A stretch of 64,000 nt of DNA from Saccharopolyspora erythraea NRRL 2338 (GTDB lineage Bacteria; Actinomycetota; Actinomycetes; Mycobacteriales; Pseudonocardiaceae), in the NCBI RefSeq assembly GCF_000062885.1, contig NC_009142.1:5135584-5199583 (forward strand). Reading direction: 5' to 3'. Numbering within the stretch: the first letter of the stretch is position 1; each line of letters opens with the position of its first letter. Both the position numbers and the translations under genes were made by a program. Below the pieces are notes generated by a model. The model saw only the letters and a program-made list of their open reading frames with translations, was not told where the DNA came from and ran no database searches. Of this stretch, positions 22,984 to 32,848 are shown piece by piece.

Positions 22984-25578
22984 TCATCGCGGCGGGGTCC
23001 AGTCGACGCTCCACAACCGGGCACCGCCACGCCGGTGCAACCTGCGCAGGAACGACAGCACCCCGGAAGAACCCGTGGCCCAGTGGCCGCTGGCGGTGTC
23101 GAGCGAGTTGCCGGCGAAGGACGGCTGCTCGGGTGTGCCACCGCTGCGGCACAGCATGAGCTCGGCGACCTCCTCGGCACCGCGCCAGAACTCCTCGTCC
23201 CCGGTGGCCGTCGCCACGTCGACCAGAGCCTCGCCGATCCCGGCGAGCCCGCAGCACTGCGAGACGACCCACGCCTGGGGTGCCAGCACCATGCACGCGC
23301 GGGCGCCTTCCTTGGCGAGCGCAAGCAACCGGTCGTCGTCGAGAGCCCGCCCCGCGAAGACGAGGGCGGAGGCGATGCCCGACATGCCCTGGCACCACGA
23401 CGCAGCCATCGGGCGGGCAGCCGGGCGCCGCATGACCGCGACCAGCTCCTCAGCCTCGGCGGCCAGGGCGCCGAACCGCTTCCCGGCCTCCTCACCGGCG
23501 GCGGGGTCACCCGTCCTGAGGTGGTGTGCCAGCAGGAAATACGCGATTCCCGCGGTGCCGTGCGCGAAACCGGCTTCCAGCGCGACACCGGAACCGGGCT
23601 GCGCCGGCGGAGCCGCGTCCTCGGCGTCGGTGACGTCGCCGCTGAGCAGGCGCCGCGCGCACTCCGAGGCGATGTCGAGGTGCCCCTCGCCCGGCGCGAG
23701 GTCGTGCAGCACGAGATGTCCGGCGCCGATCCCGGCCACGCCGTGGATGTAGTCGCCGCGCTCCCGGTCGCCGAGCTCGATGCGCTCCGGCGGCGCGAGG
23801 TCGGGTGCGAGCATGCGGCGGGCGGTGGCCAGGTAGAGCGCGGTGCCGGTGCGGCCGAAGTACAGCGCGGAGGGCAACCGCGCGGGCGGTGTCATCCGGA
23901 CGGTCCACCGGGCGAGGTCGGCCGCGACCGCCTCCGACTCCGCGTGGTGCAGCAGTTCCATGCCGAGCCCGGCCGAACCGCTGTAGACGTTGGTCACCGG
24001 CGGGTCGGCGCGGTCCGGGTCGGGTGAGTCGGCCATGAGCTTCGTCGCGAACCCGCTGCATTCCCGCAGCGTGTGCCGCAACGCCGATTCCAGCAGGTCG
24101 GGCGAGAACTTCGGCGGCGCGGGCCGGGAGCCGCGCACGGCGACGGCGCCGCCGCGGTACCGGCCCGCGCGGATGTCGGCGACTGCGGCGCTGCGCTCCG
24201 CGGGATCGAGGCTCAGGAGTCCGGGCAGCAGCGCGCGGACCCCGGTCCTGGCGTCCGGGTACAGCCGGGCCAGGCACATCAGGGTGCGTTCGAGGTTGCG
24301 GACCGGGTCTGGGTCGATGGCGACCGGGTTCATCCCCGACGCGGCGAAGAACAGCGTCGCGCCCAGCGAGAAGTAGTCGTCCTCGGGTTCGGCGGGCCGC
24401 TCGGTGTGCTGGTCGGGCACGCTGTAGCCGCGGGTCCAGCCGGGGATCTGGAGGCCGTCGTAGCGGCTGTTGCCGAAGTCGATGAGCGTGCAGCGCCCGT
24501 CGTCGTCGAGCACGATGTTCTTCGGCGAGAGGTCCCGGACGACCACGCCGCGTTCGTGCACCGCGTCCAGGACCGCGAGCAGCCGTTCCGCCAGGAGACC
24601 CAGGTCGCGGCCGGTGTCGCCGGGTTCGTCGAAGAACAGGCCGTGCTCGCCGACGAACCGGTTCAGATCGCGCGTCCCCGCGTCGGTGGTGACCAGGTAC
24701 TCGTCCTCGCCGTGGCGGAAGTGGTCGATCAGGCCGGGGACGCCTTCGACCCCGTCCAGCGCGTGCAGGATGCGGCGCTCGTTGCGCATCTGCCCGCGCA
24801 GGTCCATGCCGTTGACGTTCTCGCTGACGTAGGCCCGGGCCTCCTTGACCACGACCTGGCGGCCGTCGGGGTCCACGGCGCGGTAGACGTTGCCGCGGGG
24901 ACCGCGCATGACACCGGAGGTGAGCCGGTAGCGACCGCCCAGCGTGGTGTGCGCCGGTTCTGCGGTCCGGCCGGCCTCGGGCGCGGGCTCCGGGCGGAAG
25001 GGGTCGGTGGCCCAGTGCGGGCAGCTGTACTCGGGCCCCGCCGCACCGGCCTCGGTCTGGCCGTCGGGCCCGATCACCACGAGTTCGAAGTCGCCGTTGT
25101 CGTCCACCCGGAACTGCGGGCGGAAGGGCGCATAGCGGTAGTACACCGGTGCGTCGCGCCGCACGCGGCGGTCGCTGGCGATCCGCGGCGCCGACATGCC
25201 CGCCAGCGCCTCGGCGAGCTCGTTTCCGAGCCGCACGACGGAGTTCTGCGGCGGGTAGACCGTCAGGGCTTTGCCGACGGCGCCGGGGTCCAGGTCACCG
25301 GAGTTGAGCTCGCGCAGCGTCGAAACCGACTTGGCCACCTTGAAGTCGCAGTCGCGGGACAGCAGCAGCGGCAACACCCGATCCAGCGTCTCGGCCAGCG
25401 TGCCGGGCCGCGCGGACACGTGCAGCTTCCAGCCCTGCGCGGGAATGTCCAACCCGGTTTTGCGCACGCTGATCCAGGTTCCGTCGACCGCCACCTCGCG
25501 GCAGGCGGCGGTCGCGGCCGCGGTGATCCGGTCGATCACGTGATCCGGTGAATCCGAAACGGCCACGGCCGTGTCCAT
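22984..25578 (-). CDS. Tripartite lanthionine synthetase (class III/IV layout) with three-Cys zinc site
   Basis: 864-aa enzyme expected to dehydrate Ser/Thr in the precursor and close thioether rings. An N-terminal lyase-like region (about 1-205, with PVYYRYAPFRPQF) is followed by a kinase domain (about 215-475: Lys245 in VVVKEA, Asp349 in RDLSPKN, Asn354, Asp367 in DFG). The cyclase domain (about 500-864) has seven GxxG repeats, among them IHGVAG (His612), AHGTAG (His673), WCQGMSG (Cys729) and QCCGLAG (Cys775, Cys776). Class III enzymes lack zinc ligands and class IV keep Cys/Cys-His. Here His is replaced by Cys, a CCG motif known from some promiscuous LanM enzymes. It lies 100 bp downstream of the precursor gene on the same strand. 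Confidence 0.92.
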   Translation of the reverse strand: MDTAVAVSDSPDHVIDRITAAATAACREVAVDGTWISVRKTGLDIPAQGWKLHVSARPGTLAETLDRVLPLLLSRDCDFKVAKSVSTLRELNSGDLDPGAVGKALTVYPPQNSVVRLGNELAEALAGMSAPRIASDRRVRRDAPVYYRYAPFRPQFRVDDNGDFELVVIGPDGQTEAGAAGPEYSCPHWATDPFRPEPAPEAGRTAEPAHTTLGGRYRLTSGVMRGPRGNVYRAVDPDGRQVVVKEARAYVSENVNGMDLRGQMRNERRILHALDGVEGVPGLIDHFRHGEDEYLVTTDAGTRDLNRFVGEHGLFFDEPGDTGRDLGLLAERLLAVLDAVHERGVVVRDLSPKNIVLDDDGRCTLIDFGNSRYDGLQIPGWTRGYSVPDQHTERPAEPEDDYFSLGATLFFAASGMNPVAIDPDPVRNLERTLMCLARLYPDARTGVRALLPGLLSLDPAERSAAVADIRAGRYRGGAVAVRGSRPAPPKFSPDLLESALRHTLRECSGFATKLMADSPDPDRADPPVTNVYSGSAGLGMELLHHAESEAVAADLARWTVRMTPPARLPSALYFGRTGTALYLATARRMLAPDLAPPERIELGDRERGDYIHGVAGIGAGHLVLHDLAPGEGHLDIASECARRLLSGDVTDAEDAAPPAQPGSGVALEAGFAHGTAGIAYFLLAHHLRTGDPAAGEEAGKRFGALAAEAEELVAVMRRPAARPMAASWCQGMSGIASALVFAGRALDDDRLLALAKEGARACMVLAPQAWVVSQCCGLAGIGEALVDVATATGDEEFWRGAEEVAELMLCRSGGTPEQPSFAGNSLDTASGHWATGSSGVLSFLRRLHRRGGARLWSVDWTPPR

Positions 25579-25626
25579 TGAACGCCCTCCCGCATTCGCA
25601 GCAGCTCGGAAATCGCGAGCACGCGA

Positions 25627-25665
25627 GGCAGAAAGGCCGCCATGGCGAAATGCGGCCTTTCTGCC
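25627..25665 (-). promoter_or_regulatory. Strong hairpin between precursor and synthetase genes (attenuator/processing site)
   Basis: Perfect 14-bp arms, GGCAGAAAGGCCGC at 25627-25640 and GCGGCCTTTCTGCC at 25652-25665, with an 11-nt loop. It begins 13 bp after the precursor stop and ends 48 bp before the synthetase start. No T-tract follows on the minus strand. In lanthipeptide operons such hairpins reduce read-through so that precursor exceeds enzyme (family knowledge); the role here is inferred. Confidence 0.8.
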
Positions 25666-25678
25666 GTTCGCGTCGGAA

Positions 25679-25849
25679 TCAGACGATGGACGGGCAGCAG
25701 GGCCAGCTGCTGCAGACGGTCCGCTTGCAGGTGTTCACGCACGCCTGCGGGCCGTGCAGGACTTCCTTCAGCTCGGTCTCGAAGTCGACGGCGACGTCGT
25801 CGAGTTCGAGAACTCCCGCGTCGCGGGGCTCCAGCGTGAGCGCGGACAT
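25679..25849 (-). CDS. Lanthipeptide precursor peptide, Cys-rich core
   Basis: 56-aa peptide. The ATG at 25849 has a strong AAAGGAG site 7 nt upstream. The acidic leader (about residues 1-35) contains VLELDDVAVDF, reminiscent of the hydrophobic/acidic recognition helix of class III/IV leaders, and ELKEVLHGPQ. The C-terminal core has five Cys (37, 41, 46, 51, 52) and five Ser/Thr (40, 44, 47, 48, 54), in segments ACVNTCKRTVC and SSWPCCPSIV. Likely rings join Thr44 or Ser47/48 to downstream Cys, but topology cannot be deduced. I recognise no known relative. The leader cleavage site is unknown: the exporter has no C39 peptidase domain. Confidence 0.88.
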   Translation of the reverse strand: MSALTLEPRDAGVLELDDVAVDFETELKEVLHGPQACVNTCKRTVCSSWPCCPSIV

Positions 25850-26148
25850 GGCGATCTCCTTTCCGGGTTGCCTCGTGGGCAATCCATGCGGGCACGACGG
25901 AGGTGCGTGCGGATTCGTCGGCGTGCACCCCCAGTTCTGCACGGCGAACGGCCATTGGCGGGCATCCAGGGCCCGGAAGCTGCCGTCGGCGAACCTTTGG
26001 AATTGTTGGCACAACGGGCCTGGTTCACCTAGAGCCAAATGGACGAATAAAGGACGTTTACACATCTGCATTGGTCGTCTAGTTTCTCGCCTGTGATGGG
26101 GTGTGATCCGTCCGGTGCGCACTGGTCGCGCGAAACCGGGCTTTCTCG
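25850..26148. promoter_or_regulatory. Divergent promoter region of the lanthipeptide locus
   Basis: 299 bp between the precursor (minus) and the ABC exporter (plus). An AT-richer stretch lies at about 26000-26100, including the small inverted repeat TTGTTGGCACAA near 26008. No further RBS-preceded small peptide ORF was found on either strand. It presumably holds both promoters. Confidence 0.5.
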
Positions 26149-28050
26149 ATGAAGTCGTTGCTCCGCCGGAGAAAACAGGCGGCCGAGCCCTCCGATCTGG
26201 TCGTGCCGTACTGGCAGTGGCACGACGAGGAGCTGTTGTCGGCGGGCCTGCTGACGATGGCGCGGCGGCTGCCCGCGCTGGTCGCCGGCGCGCTGCGGGT
26301 CGCGTGGCAGGCCAGCAGGCGGGACACGGCCGCCACGCTGGGCCTCAACGCGGTCGCCGGCTTCTTCACCGCCTTCGGCCTGCTGGCCACGACCGGAGTG
26401 CTGGAGTCGCTGTTCGCCGCGGGCCCCACAACCGACAGGGTGCTCGCGGCGCTGCCCGCGCTGCTGGTGGTGGCCGCCGCGGCCGGGTTGCGCGCCGCGC
26501 TGCTCGCCGGCGCGGGATGGGCCCAGGAACGCCTGAAACCGCAGGTGGAGCGGCTCGCCGAGACCAGGCTCTTCCGGCTCACCACCGAGGTGGAGCTGAC
26601 CGCGTTCGACGACGAGGAGTTCCACAACTCCATGCAGCGGGCACGCGACAACGGCGTGCCCGACTCGGCGACCGTGGTCGAGATGACCGTCAACGTGCTC
26701 ACCGGCGTCATCGGCGTCCTGTCGGCCGCTGTCACGCTGGGCGTGCTGCACCCGCTGCTGATGCCGCTGCTGCTGGTCACCGCGGTGCCGGACGGGTGGG
26801 CGGCGTTGCGCTCCGCCCGGATGCGCTACGCGGCCTTCCGACGGGTCTCCACGGCGCGGCGCCGCAAGTTCATGCTCTCGGACCTGATGGCCGAGCGGCC
26901 GCCCGCCGCCGAGGTGCGCGCCTTCACGCTGCGCGGGTTCCTGCTGGCCGAGTACGACCGGATCGCCGACGTCGAACAGCGGGTGGAGCTCGACGTCGCC
27001 CGGCAGCGCACCAAGACCAGGGTGGCGGGCGATCTCATGGGCGGTGTCGCGCTCGGCGCCGTCTACACGGCGCTCGGCGGCATGCTCGCGGCCGGCATGG
27101 TTCCACTCGCCGTGGTCGGCACCGCGGTCCTGACGATCCGCGCGAGCCAGACCTCGCTGGCCGCGCTCGTGCAGGCGGTGAACAAGCTCTACGAAGCGGG
27201 CCTCTACTTCGGTGACTACCTGGACTTCTGCGAACTCGCACAACGGCGGGTCCCGGCGGACCGCGGCACCACGGCCCCTGCGGGATTCCGGCGAATCACC
27301 GCGGAGTCGGTCAGCTTCACCTACCCGGGAGCCGACGCGCCGTCGCTGTCGGAGGTGAGCATCGCGGTCGACCGCGGTGAGGTCGTCGCGCTGGTCGGGG
27401 AGAACGGATCCGGCAAGACCACGCTGGCCAAGCTGCTCGCGGGCCTCTACGCGCCGGACTCGGGGGTGGTCCGCTGGGACGACACCGACATCGCCGGGAT
27501 CTCGGGAAAGGCGCTGCACGACCGGATATCGGTGATCGCGCAGGACCACACCCGGTGGCCGCTGACCGCGTTGCAGAACATCACCATGGGCCGCCCCCTG
27601 GACGGCGAGCGGCTCGCGGGCGCGGCGGCGGCTTCCGGCGCCGACGAGGTGGTCGCGCGGCTCGGCCGGGGCTACGAAACGCTGCTCGACCGCAGGTTCG
27701 AGGGCGGGCACGAGCTGTCCGGCGGGCAGTGGCAGCGGATCGCCATCGCGCGCGCGTTCTACCGGGACGCGGAGCTGATGATCTTCGACGAGCCGACCTC
27801 GGCGCTGGACCCGAAGGCCGAGCACGCGCTGTTCGAGCGGATCCGGCGGCACGCCGACGGGCGCACGGTCCTGCTCATCACCCACCGGCTCTCCAGCGTG
27901 CGCTACGCCGACCGCATCTACGTGCTGAACCGGGGACGGGTCAGCGAACAGGGCACGCACGCCGACCTGGTGCTGGCCGACGGGGAGTACGCCCGCCTCT
28001 ACGAGTTGCAGGCCGCGGCCTACCGGGAACGCGAGGCGCGCCCGGCATGA
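26149..28050 (+). CDS. ABC exporter, fused membrane and ATPase domains (lanthipeptide export)
   Basis: Half-transporter of 633 aa that would dimerise to export the modified peptide. A six-helix membrane domain (about 55-345) is followed by an ATPase domain: Walker A GENGSGKTT (417-425), signature LSGGQ (523-527), Walker B LMIFDEPTSALD from residue 543, and switch His579. The N-terminus is short and has no C39 peptidase domain, so it does not itself cut the leader. No good ribosome site precedes the ATG at 26149; the start is the first Met consistent with homologues. It is divergent from the precursor and followed 37 bp later by the redox genes. Confidence 0.9.
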   Translation: MKSLLRRRKQAAEPSDLVVPYWQWHDEELLSAGLLTMARRLPALVAGALRVAWQASRRDTAATLGLNAVAGFFTAFGLLATTGVLESLFAAGPTTDRVLAALPALLVVAAAAGLRAALLAGAGWAQERLKPQVERLAETRLFRLTTEVELTAFDDEEFHNSMQRARDNGVPDSATVVEMTVNVLTGVIGVLSAAVTLGVLHPLLMPLLLVTAVPDGWAALRSARMRYAAFRRVSTARRRKFMLSDLMAERPPAAEVRAFTLRGFLLAEYDRIADVEQRVELDVARQRTKTRVAGDLMGGVALGAVYTALGGMLAAGMVPLAVVGTAVLTIRASQTSLAALVQAVNKLYEAGLYFGDYLDFCELAQRRVPADRGTTAPAGFRRITAESVSFTYPGADAPSLSEVSIAVDRGEVVALVGENGSGKTTLAKLLAGLYAPDSGVVRWDDTDIAGISGKALHDRISVIAQDHTRWPLTALQNITMGRPLDGERLAGAAAASGADEVVARLGRGYETLLDRRFEGGHELSGGQWQRIAIARAFYRDAELMIFDEPTSALDPKAEHALFERIRRHADGRTVLLITHRLSSVRYADRIYVLNRGRVSEQGTHADLVLADGEYARLYELQAAAYREREARPA

Positions 28051-28087: not shown

Positions 28088-28585
28088 ATGATCCTCTCCT
28101 CCCCCGCGGCCTACGCGCTGGCCGCCGTGCTCGGTTTCGCTGCGCTGGGCAAGGTCTCCGACATCGGCGGGTTCGCCGGTGCGATCGCCGGTTACCGGAT
28201 GCTGCCGCAGTCGTGGACCAGCACGGTCGCCGGAGTGGTCGTCGGTGGCGAACTGCTGAGCGCGATCCTGCTGGTGTGGCCGCACACCCGGTTCTGGGGA
28301 GCGCTGCTGTCGCTCGGGCTCCTCGCCGCCTTCCTCGTCGGCATGCTCGGCGTTCTCCGCCGGGGGCTCCGCGTGGACTGCGGCTGCTTCCGGACGACCG
28401 GCCCGGAGGAGATCGTCGGTCCCGGCACGGTGGTGCGAACGGGATTGCTCCTCGTGCTGGCCGTGCTCGCGGCGTTGCCCGGGGAGCCGGCGTTCCGCCT
28501 CGTGCACCTCCTGCTCGCGGTGCTGATGCTGGTCACCGTCTTCCTCTCCGCGACCCTGGTCTCGTTCACCGCGAGGTCGGCATGA
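28088..28585 (+). CDS. MauE/DoxX-like membrane protein with CGC motif
   Basis: Membrane protein of 165 aa with four predicted helices and the family Cys pair in VDCGCF (Cys98, Cys100) on a loop between helices. MauE-type proteins pass electrons to an exported thioredoxin-like partner, as needed for disulfide handling in methylamine dehydrogenase (family knowledge). Its stop overlaps the thioredoxin-like gene by 4 bp (ATGA), so the two are coupled. Placement behind the exporter suggests control of the thiol/disulfide state of the Cys-rich peptide or its enzymes. Confidence 0.85.
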   Translation: MILSSPAAYALAAVLGFAALGKVSDIGGFAGAIAGYRMLPQSWTSTVAGVVVGGELLSAILLVWPHTRFWGALLSLGLLAAFLVGMLGVLRRGLRVDCGCFRTTGPEEIVGPGTVVRTGLLLVLAVLAALPGEPAFRLVHLLLAVLMLVTVFLSATLVSFTARSA

Positions 28586-29094
28586 CCGCGGAGTGGGCGG
28601 TGCTCCTGCTGCTCTCGCTGCTAGCCGTGCTGAACTCCGTCGCGGCCATCGCCCTGATTCGGCAGCGGATCTTCGCCGAGCAGCCCGCTTCCGCGGCCTA
28701 CGGTCCAACACCGGGAACAAGCCTGGACGTCGGTGTTCCCGTGGAGTCGTTGAGCGCGGGAGCCGACAAGGTGCTGTTCGGGTTCATCTCACCGCAGTGC
28801 GGCCACTGCCGGATCATGCTGGCGGAGTTCGTCCGCTTCTCCGCACGGATCCGGGTCGTGCTGGTCAGTGCGGCCGATCCGCAAGAGGCGCGGGCACACC
28901 TCGCCGCCCACGACGTCGACCTGCCGCTGGTGACCGGTACCGACGTCTTCGACGCCAACGACGTTCCCGGGCCGCCCTACGCCGTCGTCACCGACGGCCG
29001 CGGCATCGTGCTGGCGCAGGGTGGAGCGAACCGGCCGGAGCATCTGGAGGAACTGCTGTCACGGGCCGACGCCCTGCGTCCGCCTGCGACGTAG
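28582..29094 (+). CDS. Membrane-anchored thioredoxin-like protein (MauD/TlpA type)
   Basis: 170-aa protein with one N-terminal membrane anchor (about 5-27) and an outward-facing thioredoxin-like domain whose redox pair is CGHC (Cys73, Cys76) in FISPQCGHC. The region near VPGPPYAVVTDGRG corresponds to the cis-Pro segment. The start overlaps the MauE-like gene. It probably acts with that protein as an extracytoplasmic thiol oxidoreductase. It ends at a 40-bp perfect palindrome that closes the lanthipeptide locus. Confidence 0.87.
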   Translation: MTAEWAVLLLLSLLAVLNSVAAIALIRQRIFAEQPASAAYGPTPGTSLDVGVPVESLSAGADKVLFGFISPQCGHCRIMLAEFVRFSARIRVVLVSAADPQEARAHLAAHDVDLPLVTGTDVFDANDVPGPPYAVVTDGRGIVLAQGGANRPEHLEELLSRADALRPPAT

Positions 29095-29138: not shown

Positions 29139-31313
29139 TCACTGCTCCAGCAGGTCCTCGAGCACGATGGGGATGTGGCGGACGCGAACGCCGGTGGCGT
29201 TGTGGATGGCGTTGGCGACGGCCGCAGCCATGCCGACGGTGCCGATCTCGCCCACTCCCTTCGCACCCACGGAGTTGTGCAGCGTGTCCGGGTACTGGAC
29301 GAAGTGGACGTCCACATCGGATATGTCGGCGTTCACCGGCACCAGGTAGCCCGCGAAGTCACCGTTGGCCAGCCGGCCGTTCTCCTCGATCTCCAGCCCC
29401 TCGTGCAACGCCGCCGACACGCCCCAGATCATGCCGCCCATGAGCTGGCTGCGAGCCGCCTTCTCGTTGATGATCCGGCCCGCGTCGAACACGCCGAGCA
29501 TGCGGGAGACCCGCGCCTCGCGCGTCCACCGGTGCACCCGGACCTCGCAGAACTGGGCGCCGAAAGAGCTGAACGAGTGCTTGGTCAGCTCCTCCCCGGG
29601 CGCGGACGAACCCGTCGCGGCCAGCGAGGAGCGGTCCACCGCCCGCAGCAGCTCACCGAAGGTCATCGACCGGTCCCCGGCCAGCACGCGACCGTCCTCG
29701 TAGGTGACCTCCATGCCCTCGAACGGCGCGCCCGGGGACGACGCCAGGGCCACCAGCTCGTCGATCACCTCGGTCGCTGCGATCATGATGGCCGAGCCCA
29801 CGCTCGCGGTGGCGGTCGAGCCACCGGACAAGCCCCCGGGCGGCAACGCCGAGTCGCCCAGCCTCGGCGCAACCCGCTCCGGGGCGATGTCCAGCGACTC
29901 GCCGCCCACCAGGGAGAGCACGGTGAGCAGGCCCGTTCCCGGGTCCGACCCGCTGGTCGCGACCACGGCGGTGTCGTCGGCCCGCAGGGTGACCTCGACC
30001 GTGGCCGGGAACCGCAGCGCCGGGAACATCGCGGTGGCCGTGCCCAGACCCACGAGCCAGTCGCCGTCGGTGCGACCGCGCGGCGAGCGGCTCGCCCAGC
30101 CGAACCGCTCCGCGCCGAGGCGGAAGCACTCGTCGAGGTGCTTGCTCGACCACTGCAGGTCCTTGCCGGGCGGCGCGGTCGAGTTGTTCCGCATGCGCAG
30201 CTCGATCGGGTCCATGCCGAGTTCGACCGCGAGCTCGTCGATCGCGCTCTCCAGCGCGAAGGACCCGGGCGCCTCGCCTGGCGCGCGCATGAACGTGGTC
30301 GGCGGGATGTTCAGCGGCACCATCTTCTGGCTGATGGCCAGGTTCTCGGTGGCGTACCACTCGCGCGAGGTGCCGTGCGAGGTCGGTTCGACGAAGGACC
30401 GGTCCATCGGGGTGCTGCACCACGAGTCGTGGCGCAACGCGACCAGCGTGCCGTCGGTGCGGGCGCCCAGGGCGATCTTCTGGACCGTCGCGGGGCGCGT
30501 CGCGGTCGCGGTGAAGACCTGCTCCCTGCTCAACGCCGCCTTGACCGGCCGGTCCAGCGCCTTGGCCGCGGCCGCCGCCAGGAACGCGGGCGCGGAGGTG
30601 CGGGCCTTGCCGCCGAACGCCCCGCCCACGTAGGGGTTCACCGCGTGCACCGACGACGGGTCGACGTCGAACGCACCGGCCAGCTCGGCCGCCTGGAGGT
30701 GGGCCCCCTGGTTGCCGCTGTAGACCGTCAGGCCTCCGGAGTCCCACACCGCGACCGCGGAATGCGGTTCCATCGCGGCGTGGTTCTGGGTCGCGGTGCT
30801 GTAGGTCGCCTCGAACACGACGGGACTCGAGGCCAGCGCGTCCTCGATGGACTCGACGCCGTCGGCGAGCACCGTGAGCGACGGCGGCGAACCGCCCCGG
30901 TCCGCCGGCGCGTCCTCGGCCGAGTCGAGGCCGTCCTCCAGCGAGGTCAGGGCCGGCCGCTGGTGGTAGGAGACCTCGACGAGCATCGCCGCGTCCCGGG
31001 CCTGCTCGTAGGTCTCCGCCACCACGAAGCCGATCGGCTGGCCGTAGTAGGCGACTTCCTTGTCCTGCAGGGGAACCCACGTCTCGCCGAACAGCGGGGA
31101 GCTCGGTGTGCGCAGCTCCAGCGGGTTGAACGGCGTGAACACGCCAAGCACGCCGGGAGCGCGCTCGGCCTCCGCGACGTCCATGGCCGCGATCTCGCCG
31201 TGGGCGATCGTGCTGAGCAGGACGTATCCGTGGACCATGCCGGGGAGGTTGTGGTCCACCCCGTACCTGGCCTGCCCGGTGACTTTCGCCGGGCCGTCCA
31301 GCCTGCTGGTCAT
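29139..31313 (-). CDS. Molybdenum hydroxylase, Mo-cofactor-binding large subunit
   Basis: Catalytic subunit of 724 aa in the xanthine dehydrogenase/aldehyde oxidase family. The ATG at 31313 overlaps the FAD-subunit stop by 4 bp; the open frame extends further upstream but into that gene. Marks: DGPAKVTGQARYGVDHNLPGM is the family N-terminus, GGAFGGKA contacts the cofactor, and the catalytic Glu lies in GAKGVGEIGTVG. The gene order FeS, FAD, Mo matches the PaoABC-type aldehyde oxidoreductases. No Tat signal is seen on the FeS subunit, so it is probably cytosolic. Substrate is unknown (aldehyde or N-heterocycle). Confidence 0.92.
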   Translation of the reverse strand: MTSRLDGPAKVTGQARYGVDHNLPGMVHGYVLLSTIAHGEIAAMDVAEAERAPGVLGVFTPFNPLELRTPSSPLFGETWVPLQDKEVAYYGQPIGFVVAETYEQARDAAMLVEVSYHQRPALTSLEDGLDSAEDAPADRGGSPPSLTVLADGVESIEDALASSPVVFEATYSTATQNHAAMEPHSAVAVWDSGGLTVYSGNQGAHLQAAELAGAFDVDPSSVHAVNPYVGGAFGGKARTSAPAFLAAAAAKALDRPVKAALSREQVFTATATRPATVQKIALGARTDGTLVALRHDSWCSTPMDRSFVEPTSHGTSREWYATENLAISQKMVPLNIPPTTFMRAPGEAPGSFALESAIDELAVELGMDPIELRMRNNSTAPPGKDLQWSSKHLDECFRLGAERFGWASRSPRGRTDGDWLVGLGTATAMFPALRFPATVEVTLRADDTAVVATSGSDPGTGLLTVLSLVGGESLDIAPERVAPRLGDSALPPGGLSGGSTATASVGSAIMIAATEVIDELVALASSPGAPFEGMEVTYEDGRVLAGDRSMTFGELLRAVDRSSLAATGSSAPGEELTKHSFSSFGAQFCEVRVHRWTREARVSRMLGVFDAGRIINEKAARSQLMGGMIWGVSAALHEGLEIEENGRLANGDFAGYLVPVNADISDVDVHFVQYPDTLHNSVGAKGVGEIGTVGMAAAVANAIHNATGVRVRHIPIVLEDLLEQ

Positions 31314-32272
31314 CAGCGGCTCCCCTCGGTCAGTTCCAGCAGCGCGCGGACGACGGTCCGCTTCAGCAGAGGCACCTTGAAACCGTTCGCGGACAACGGC
31401 CTGGCACCGTCGGCCGCCTCGGACGCGGCGGCCTCGAAGGACTCCTGGGTCGCGGGCGCGCCGCGCAGGGCCTCCTCCACCGCGGGCAGCCGCCACGGCA
31501 CGGTCGCCACGCCACCGACCGCCACCCGGGCGTCGGCGATGCGCGAGTCCCGGACGTCCAGCGCGACCGCGGCCGAACACAGCGCGAACTCGTAGGACTG
31601 CCGGTCCCGAACCTTGACGTAGGTGGAACGCGACGCCCAGTCCAGCCGGGGGACCACGACCTCGCTGATCAGCTCCCCGTCGCGCAGGTCGTTCTCCACC
31701 TCGGGGGTGCCGCCCGGCTGCCGGTAGAAGTCGGCCAGCTTGACGGTGCGCTCCCCGGCTGCGCCGACCAGCCGGACCTCGGCGTCGAGCGCGACCAGAG
31801 CCACCGCCAGGTCGCTGGCGTGCGTCGCCACGCACGCGTCGCTGGTGCCCAGCACGGCGTGCATCCGGTTGGCCCCGGAGATCGCGGGGCAACCGCTGCC
31901 CGGTTCCCGCTTGTTGCACGGCGTCGCGACATCGCGGAAGTACGTGCAGCGAGTGCGCTGCAACAGGTTCCCGCCGATGCTGGCCATGTTGCGCAGTTGC
32001 TGCGAGGCGCTCAGCAGAAGGGCCCGGGAGATCGCCGGGTACACACCGGGATGCCCGGCGACGTCGCTCATCCGCTCCAGCGCGCCGATGCGCAGGCCGT
32101 CAGCGGTGTCGATGCCGCGCAACGGCAACGCGTTGATGTCCAGGACGTGTTGCGGTGTCAGGACGTTGAGCTTCATCAGGTCGACGAGCGTGGTGCCGCC
32201 GGCCAGGAACGTGCCGGGCGAGGCGAGAGCGGCCTCGACGGTGGCGGGTTCGGTGAGGTCAAAGGGTCGCAT
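31313..32272 (-). CDS. Molybdenum hydroxylase, FAD-binding subunit
   Basis: Middle subunit of 319 aa that shuttles electrons from the Fe-S clusters to the acceptor. It has the CO dehydrogenase medium-subunit fold: [14 protein letters not shown] near residue 22 (FAD loop), [18 protein letters not shown] with the extra Cys-rich insert ([10 protein letters not shown]) typical of PaoB-like subunits that carry a further 4Fe-4S cluster, and the C-terminal CO-dehydrogenase flavoprotein domain. It overlaps the FeS subunit gene by 14 bp and the Mo subunit by 4 bp. Confidence 0.92.
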
Positions 32273-32711
32273 CGGCCTGCCTCGCTTGTTCGACTGCCGC
32301 GACGATGTTCGGGTAGGCCGCGCAGCGGCAGAGGTTGCCCGACATGAACTCCCGGACGTCCTCGACGTCCTGGCGGACCGCGGCGACCGCCGACATGACC
32401 TGCCCGGAGGTGCAGAACCCGCACTGCAGGGCGTCCTGGTCGACGAACGCCTGCTGGACCGGGTGCAACCCCTCCTCCGAGGACAGCCCTTCCACCGTGG
32501 TCACCGGCTGCTTCACGGTCGCGGCCAGGGTGAGGCACGACAGCACGGGCCTGCCGTCGACGTGCACCGTGCAGGCACCGCACTGGCCGCGGTCGCAGCC
32601 CTTCTTCGGACCGGTGATGCCGAGGCGTTCGCGCAACGCGTCCAGCAGCGTCACACCGGGATCGACGCTCAGCTGTTCCGTCCTGCCGTTGATTTCGAGT
32701 GAGATGTCCAC
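32259..32711 (-). CDS. Molybdenum hydroxylase, 2x[2Fe-2S] subunit
   Basis: Small electron-transfer subunit of 150 aa starting with GTG at 32711. The plant-type cluster ligands are Cys39, Cys44, Cys47 (CDRGQCGAC) and Cys59. The second cluster is held by CGFC and CRC in the C-terminal helical domain. There is no signal peptide. It is the first gene of the three-gene operon, divergent from the TetR regulator with two palindromes in the shared region. Confidence 0.92.
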
Positions 32712-32800: not shown

Positions 32801-32848
32801 ACGGATAGTCATCCGTTTCGGTCCCGAGGCTAGTGGATTATTATCCGC
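32801..32848. promoter_or_regulatory. Two GGAT-N4-ATCC palindromes, probable TetR operators
   Basis: ACGGAT-agtc-ATCCGT at 32801-32816 is perfect. GTGGAT-tatt-ATCCGC at 32833-32848 has one mismatch. Their starts are 32 bp apart, about three helical turns, in the divergent region between the hydroxylase operon and the TetR gene. Confidence 0.7.

Follow-up and report, generated by a model that had tools for sequence, protein, structure and literature searches.

Cinnamycin contains three cysteines and thioether bridges linking positions 1–18, 4–14 and 5–11, and curvocidin, whose LanL-type synthetase is CuvL, is reportedly tricyclic. In the available text of PMC6974636, kyamicin carries Thr4, Thr11 and Thr18, and peptides of the cinnamycin type are described with a Ser6–Lys19 lysinoalanine and a hydroxy-Asp15. 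Venezuelin, another class IV product, is described as most closely resembling cinnamycin in its ring layout (PMC2843593). Bovicin HJ50-like lantibiotics are described as having a required disulfide (PMC4018250); these are class II peptides with Streptococcus, Clostridium and Bacillus as the named hosts, and their likeness to the locus analysed here is one of description only. The decRiPPter study presented three candidate RiPP families with mauE homologues, one of them also with mauD, and suggested a modification role; the available text gives MauE and its partner no known role in RiPP clusters so far (PMC7794033); the term 'class IV' is absent from its text.

The window, i.e. the whole 64,000-nucleotide stretch of Saccharopolyspora erythraea NRRL 2338 DNA that was analysed, contains a five-gene cassette whose class, content, conservation and genetic linkage are well supported by sequence analysis. 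It represents a distinct, well-conserved five-Cys class IV subfamily within the Cys-Cys-Gly LanL clade that also includes the SflA-type and curvocidin systems. The following features were recognised:

22984..25578, minus strand: lanL, class IV lanthionine synthetase of 864 aa (lyase, kinase, LanC-like cyclase)
25627..25665, minus strand: strong inverted repeat in the gap between lanA and lanL (folding, shuffle test)
25679..25849, minus strand: lanA, 56-aa lanthipeptide precursor (NF038148, 26.8 bits; conservation in relatives)
25849-25751, minus strand: lanA leader, residues 1-33, with the EPRDAG motif
25750-25682, minus strand: lanA core, approximately residues 34-56
25856..25859, minus strand: lanA ribosome-binding site GGAG (upstream sequence of the window and relatives)
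26149..28050, plus strand: ABC transporter, probable exporter, with no C39 peptidase domain in a Pfam scan
28088..28585, plus strand: mauE, MauE-family membrane protein with a CGC motif (PF07291, 90.6 bits; cut-off 27)
28582..29094, plus strand: trx, thioredoxin-like protein with an N-terminal hydrophobic segment and a CGHC motif

Translation of lanA from the minus strand (25849 to 25679, stop codon included) yields the 56-aa peptide MSALTLEPRDAGVLELDDVAVDFETELKEVLHGPQACVNTCKRTVCSSWPCCPSIV. The original prediction of a precursor of this length whose C-terminal part contains equal numbers, five each, of Cys and Ser/Thr was confirmed by the ORF and the residue counts: the peptide end, HGPQACVNTCKRTVCSSWPCCPSIV, holds Cys37, 41, 46, 51 and 52 and Ser/Thr at 40, 44, 47, 48 and 54, all located beyond His32–Gly33. 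The ribosome-binding site and start read AAAGGAGATCGCC-ATG; GGAG precedes the lanA start in 36 of 37 coding sequences compared and is replaced by GGGG in L025. A chance ORF was ruled out by conservation and by an excess of synonymous change. The lanL start lies 100 bases downstream of the lanA stop, and the inverted repeat situated in this gap forms a 14-pair main stem (-38 kcal/mol over a folded 59-base segment, z -6.2, equalled in stability by 0 of 200 shuffles), probably serving as an mRNA stabiliser or attenuator. Stems 3' of lanA were also predicted in the relatives folded, in GC-rich DNA and without a shuffle control. Sigma-70 promoter and terminator scans of positions 25550-26200 found nothing. 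The promoter-like word CATAATGC precedes lanA in 27 of 39 relatives, at a distance of approximately 105–155 bases in six examples, and is missing from the 170 bases upstream of lanA in the window.

The precursor system is almost certainly that of a class IV lanthipeptide, judging from its synthetase. The lanL product passed the class IV model NF038150 (754 bits, cut-off 650) and failed both the class III LanKC model NF038151 (353 bits, cut-off 575), which ruled out a class III assignment, and the class II LanM model (63.6 bits, cut-off 304). Thus, the LanKC considered earlier as the neighbouring enzyme gave way to a class IV LanL, whereas the proposal of a lanthipeptide-type precursor whose core lies outside any NCBIfam or Pfam model was upheld. 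A Pfam scan of the lanL product returned the RamC_N, Pkinase and LANC_like domains. We regard as very improbable a metal-chelating role of the Cys in a peptide with few modifications: the CxxxC...C...CC arrangement could, from its spacing, bind metal, but a dedicated LanL adjoins, the lyase, kinase and cyclase motif blocks are conserved in the LanLs of this core family, and no metal-transport gene was recognised among the five genes of the cassette.

The predicted cyclase site appears to possess the zinc-ligand residues that class III enzymes lack. SWCQG and QCCG stand at the zinc-ligand places in all 16 core-family rows reaching that far, and were equated by motif, not by alignment, with the NisC ligands Cys284, Cys330 and His331 given in the available text of PMC9889658. 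CuvL is the nearest solved structure both in sequence (E 3e-202) and in fold; the LanL model (mean pLDDT 78.9) matched PDB entries 8car and 8cav with Z 44.7 and rmsd 9.5–10.6 over 763 residues at 41–44% identity. A Cys-Cys-Cys zinc site was considered as a novelty and discarded because CuvL shares the same Cys-Cys-Gly motif, which is therefore a known feature; a literature search for such a site together with ProcM found nothing. The genome of the window also encodes another class IV LanL, this one with Cys-His ligands (L001/L109, G000:C1:4423189-4425729), and a synthetase (L003) scoring under the class IV cut-off, and no precursor was identified for either.

Two trees were used to place these synthetases. 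The first left out short, duplicate and broken LanL rows and carried a long-branch warning for rows including L003, L104, L101 and L138; the second comprised 13 core-family rows, with 14 CuvL-type loci added, and carried this warning for L104, L138, L107 and L129. The LanLs associated with this core formed one clade in both (35 rows, 100/100, and 13 rows, 100/100, respectively). In the second tree the Cys-Cys-Gly LanLs, including QCCG-bearing enzymes in 14 of the 14 added loci, formed one clade against the Cys-His LanLs (100/100). CuvL (L169) fell on one branch (82/75) and the window group on the other, together with L101 and L128-L131; its nearest neighbours were L101 (SflA type), L104 and L182 (a 16-row group, 96/87), followed by L128-L131. 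The branches splitting the Cys-Cys-Gly clade had support of 82/75 and 92/72.

Within this clade, the curvocidin system shares with that of the window the Cys-Cys-Gly motif of CuvL and the EPRDAG leader, but the window LanL lies outside CuvL's own branch, and a three-Cys core contrasts with five Cys in 39 of 39 full-length window relatives. The LanL of L169 is 100% identical to the CuvL PDB chain along a 335-residue part, and its genome (G1430) is presumably that of Thermomonospora curvata. Two curvocidin-type precursors lie in tandem upstream of cuvL at this locus; both have three Cys (CTVCHWGxTxLCDD), no mauE or trx nearby and no model match. The SflA-type peptide of L101, which scored 97 bits against the SflA family model NF038148, has two Cys and another core, again with no mauE or trx nearby.

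Many sister precursors share an RDAG/EPRDAG leader and a core starting CxxTC or CTVC, with L104, L138, L175, L176 and L182 departing from the leader motif. At L102, L103, L127-L131, L175-L177 and L180 a LanL stands beside cinnamycin-like cores (CxxTCxSGxTxxCDG and variants), and the precursors of L127, L128, L129 and L131 contain a second, similar half in tandem. Eight sister peptides were scanned, of which six matched the cinnamycin model, one the SflA model and one nothing; L128 alone among the six exceeded the cinnamycin cut-off (37.8 against 35). Cinnamycin-like cores occur on both branches of the Cys-Cys-Gly clade (L102, L103, L175-L177 and L180; L128-L131), and this core type may therefore date from early in the clade's history. 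A class IV counterpart of the cinnamycin-like peptides may thus exist, and the subfamily described here adjoins a clade in which such cores go with an unrelated class IV synthetase. A BTAD-domain regulator is encoded beside two of the cinnamycin-like class IV loci (L128:8690-10561 and L131:8263-10140).

The claim that the precursor has no recognised relative divided in two. It failed for the leader, which scores above the cut-off of NF038148 (26.8 bits, cut-off 25) over residues 1-40 and has a 39-genome family as well as curvocidin and cinnamycin-like cousins; it held for the core, since neither NCBIfam nor Pfam gave a match covering residues 41-56, outside that range, at E up to 0.1. Among core-family relatives, the same model gave 31.3 bits for L126, over the cut-off, and 21.7 for the tandem copy L045, under it. 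Relatives of leader and core together, sought with the peptide and with profiles, were found in full length in 39 genomes, so that the peptide is not without kin.

A search based on LanL only, and hence blind to the peptide, retrieved 18 loci. Seventeen were inspected, with the peptide just upstream of lanL in 16; no lanA was found beside the lanL of L024, truncated at its start. The remaining locus, L026, is a distant kinase (29% identical). The peptide searches are biased toward this core, which the LanL-only search is not. Full-length copies of the core CxxTCxRT(V/I)CxxxPCCxSI were obtained by peptide and profile searches from 39 genomes in three NCBI families, with hosts including Saccharopolyspora, Amycolatopsis, Nonomuraea, Actinomadura and Actinoallomurus. 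Full-length lanA copies were present in 11 of 390 genomes of the window's family (any match, 17/390) and in 28 of 341 genomes of the family of G889 (any match, 32/341), and an even phylum sample of 396 genomes yielded the window's own copy and one weak match only; misses are possible, since some candidates per genome were scored in the phylum sample and G889-family searches, among others. No relative was detected among PLSDB plasmids at the DNA or protein level. Weak matches in G103, G169, G176, G385 and G746 were dismissed as chance (E 0.005-0.01, three with an internal stop). Two genomes, G363 and G348 (L034, L035, L044 and L045), carry a tandem second lanA with SS to TL, PS to QT, N to D and other changes and with all five Cys kept. 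In L137 (G366) the cassette is fragmented, through decay or sequencing errors: lanA is in two out-of-frame pieces, the best single matches cover 83 residues of lanL and 114 of the exporter, and mauE and trx were not found.

The 39 copies showed 13 core forms against 32 leader forms, with a mean pairwise identity of 0.93 in the core and 0.70 in the leader; they were extracted by a pattern fixing most core residues, and the invariance of the core is thus partly by construction. Of the full-length matches from both family searches, only the tandem second copies in G363 and G348 departed from this pattern. In 37 coding sequences (the 39 copies less L143 and L144), pN/pS was 0.138 in the core (residues 32-56) and 0.389 in the leader (residues 2-31), and synonymous sites were well diverged in both (pS 0.385 and 0.493, respectively). 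The low core ratio implies that selection acts on the product, and on these substitution data the core is under purifying selection, as opposed to recent spread. Such near letter-for-letter conservation may reflect a conserved target or a role in signalling. The product could accordingly be a conserved signal or developmental peptide and not a weapon, a possibility that we hold tentatively and that is compatible with our best explanation: the core hardly varies across three NCBI families, in contrast to the leader, and LanL is only 60–71% identical outside the window's genus, but conserved antibiotics exist too, and none of the cassette genes was identified as encoding a receptor or a developmental protein.

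The exporter, mauE and trx were all present in 36 of the 39 genomes with this core, window included, in counts that leave out the fragmented L137 and L183/L024, the latter with lanL truncated at its start, no lanA found, and mauE and trx present. In L143 and L144 the pair was detected by tblastn only, outside the profile search. The core is kept in L011 (A. spadix), where mauE and trx were not found in about 6 kb beyond the exporter, and the contigs of L018 and L123 end inside the exporter and about 1 kb beyond it, respectively. By profile search, mauE and trx were found in none of 24 related LanL loci with other cores (L101-L104, L127-L131, L138 and L169-L182; the L127 contig is 6.9 kb long, L181 yielded no precursor, and the L182 candidate is without the EPRDAG motif), and in none of five loci with Cys-His LanLs (L105-L109). 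Genome G1368 carries both kinds of locus, L132 with the pair and L131 without it. The linkage of redox genes to the precursor, part of the original prediction, therefore proved stronger than claimed (36/39 against 0/24). As the LanLs with this core form one clade, the linkage represents one long-kept association and not many independent ones. L011 and L123 branch first in this clade in both trees. The pair may thus be a later acquisition of the remaining members, or it may have been lost from these early branches. Furthermore, the five-Cys sister cores of L127, L128, L129 and L131 have no mauE or trx, and Cys number alone thus does not predict the pair.

The exporter gene, mauE and trx run as an operon divergent from lanA, with trx encoding a putatively membrane-anchored protein. 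The start of trx overlaps the mauE stop by 4 bases, and the MauE CGC and trx CxxC motifs are kept in the homologues compared. The single trx protein reached E 0.0018 against Pfam thioredoxin, below the cut-off, whereas a profile of ten trx proteins matched PDI and ResA chains, most strongly protein disulfide isomerases. ResA is a membrane-anchored reductase. The window protein has CGHC and its relatives CGAC, CGLC, CGTC and others, a variation that makes the oxidative or reductive direction unreadable from the motif.

The number of conserved residues limits the possible products. With Cys37 taken as core position 1, the five Cys and the Ser/Thr at positions 4, 8, 11 and 18 are kept in 41 of 41 copies, and position 12 (residue 48) is occupied by Ser or Thr in the 39 copies, apart from a single Arg, and by Leu in two tandem second copies. 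Four universal Ser/Thr permit at most four rings in every member, leaving one Cys outside thioethers, as the leftover Cys proposed at the outset would have it; three rings and one disulfide use all five Cys, whereas four rings leave a free thiol. We give even chances to a product with thioethers plus one disulfide. The equal numbers of Cys and Ser/Thr in the window peptide would also allow all five Cys to form thioethers in the window species, with the redox pair serving the exporter or other envelope proteins and linked by operon structure; this is improbable, being impossible in copies that have Arg (L144) or Leu (second copies, L135 and L136) at position 12 with five Cys kept, at loci that have mauE and trx. 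L135 and L136 also have a first lanA copy with Ser-Ser. Somewhat less improbable, but still unlikely, are four thioether rings and one free thiol that MauE and the thioredoxin-like protein, acting reductively, would keep reduced after export: the count of four universal Ser/Thr against five Cys and the match of the trx profile to ResA agree with this, but the strongest profile matches are protein disulfide isomerases, and the window motif is CGHC, albeit one that varies in relatives.

For the product with one disulfide, a pattern of Cys1–Ser18, Thr4–Cys15 (or 16) and Cys5–Ser11 thioethers with Cys10 and Cys16 (or 15) in the disulfide follows the cinnamycin/curvocidin frame and is put forward as the most economical, if tentative, model. 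Cys1, Thr/Ser4, Cys5, Ser/Thr11 and Ser/Thr18 occupy the same core positions in cinnamycin, duramycin and kyamicin, and the members of the pairs Cys1/Ser18, Thr4/Cys15 and Cys5/Ser11 are kept as Cys or Ser/Thr in all copies. In one alignment Cys15 stands opposite the third Cys of the cousins, and in another, made with other members, that Cys stands opposite a gap. The fit of the window core to the cinnamycin frame is only suggestive, as 2.4% of shuffled tails fit equally well. Moreover, Thr8 is invariant yet without a role in the proposed pattern, and L101, which lies closest to the core family in the tree without belonging to it, has a core with two Cys that is not of the cinnamycin type. Cinnamycin is made by a class II LanM, and the window peptide, without Asp15, Ser6 and Lys19, did not match the cinnamycin model NF033431 at E up to 0.1.

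Our best explanation, to which we give slightly better than even odds, is a five-gene class IV cassette producing three thioether rings on a cinnamycin/curvocidin-like frame and a disulfide formed after export. For the ring number and pattern, the disulfide, export, the peptidase and the role of the product, we infer the following course. The EPRDAG-type leader would recruit LanL, which would phosphorylate and then eliminate selected core Ser/Thr and close the thioether rings at a zinc site coordinated by three Cys. Export by the ABC protein would follow, and a general peptidase encoded elsewhere would remove the leader, in line with what has been described for SflA. On the outer side of the membrane, the two non-thioether Cys would be oxidised to a disulfide by MauE together with the CxxC thioredoxin-like protein. 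Model and Pfam scans recognised no peptidase in the cassette, three M1-type peptidase matches exist elsewhere in this genome, and the available text of PMC10885120 describes removal of the SflA leader by a peptidase encoded outside its cluster; together these make leader removal by a general enzyme likely, in which case ragged ends would be expected. Going further, the product may conceivably be a class IV lanthionine-disulfide hybrid that is finished outside the cell, where a dedicated MauE and PDI-like pair would oxidise it to a cinnamycin-like cage with four bridges. This cage would be conserved near letter for letter across several actinomycete families, a fuller picture that we consider doubtful.

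Few class IV lanthipeptides have been characterised, a 2022 report counting two earlier ones and adding two (PMC9576775, available text), and here we describe a large subfamily with a nearly fixed core in which no characterised member was found. The core strings had no match in a literature text search, to which supplementary files were external; the text of PMC7268733 mentions 401 class IV precursors, and its supplement may well list this one. Searches for 'cinnamycin-like' with 'class IV' returned nothing, those for lanthipeptide, thioredoxin, disulfide and class IV returned nothing on topic as judged by title and abstract start, and for lanthipeptide with MauE only PMC7794033 was judged relevant, by title. 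A genuine disulfide would provide MauE and its thioredoxin-like partner with a small, defined substrate.

Beyond trx, molybdenum hydroxylase genes (29139-32711) were also considered as the 'linked redox genes' and rejected, as close homologues were found only in L139, from a same-genus genome, among 57 loci (L009-L025 and L100-L139), the others being 25–29% identical. These genes encode three subunits on the minus strand and adjoin the conserved cassette without belonging to it, and a TetR-type gene lies beside them, divergent at 32833.
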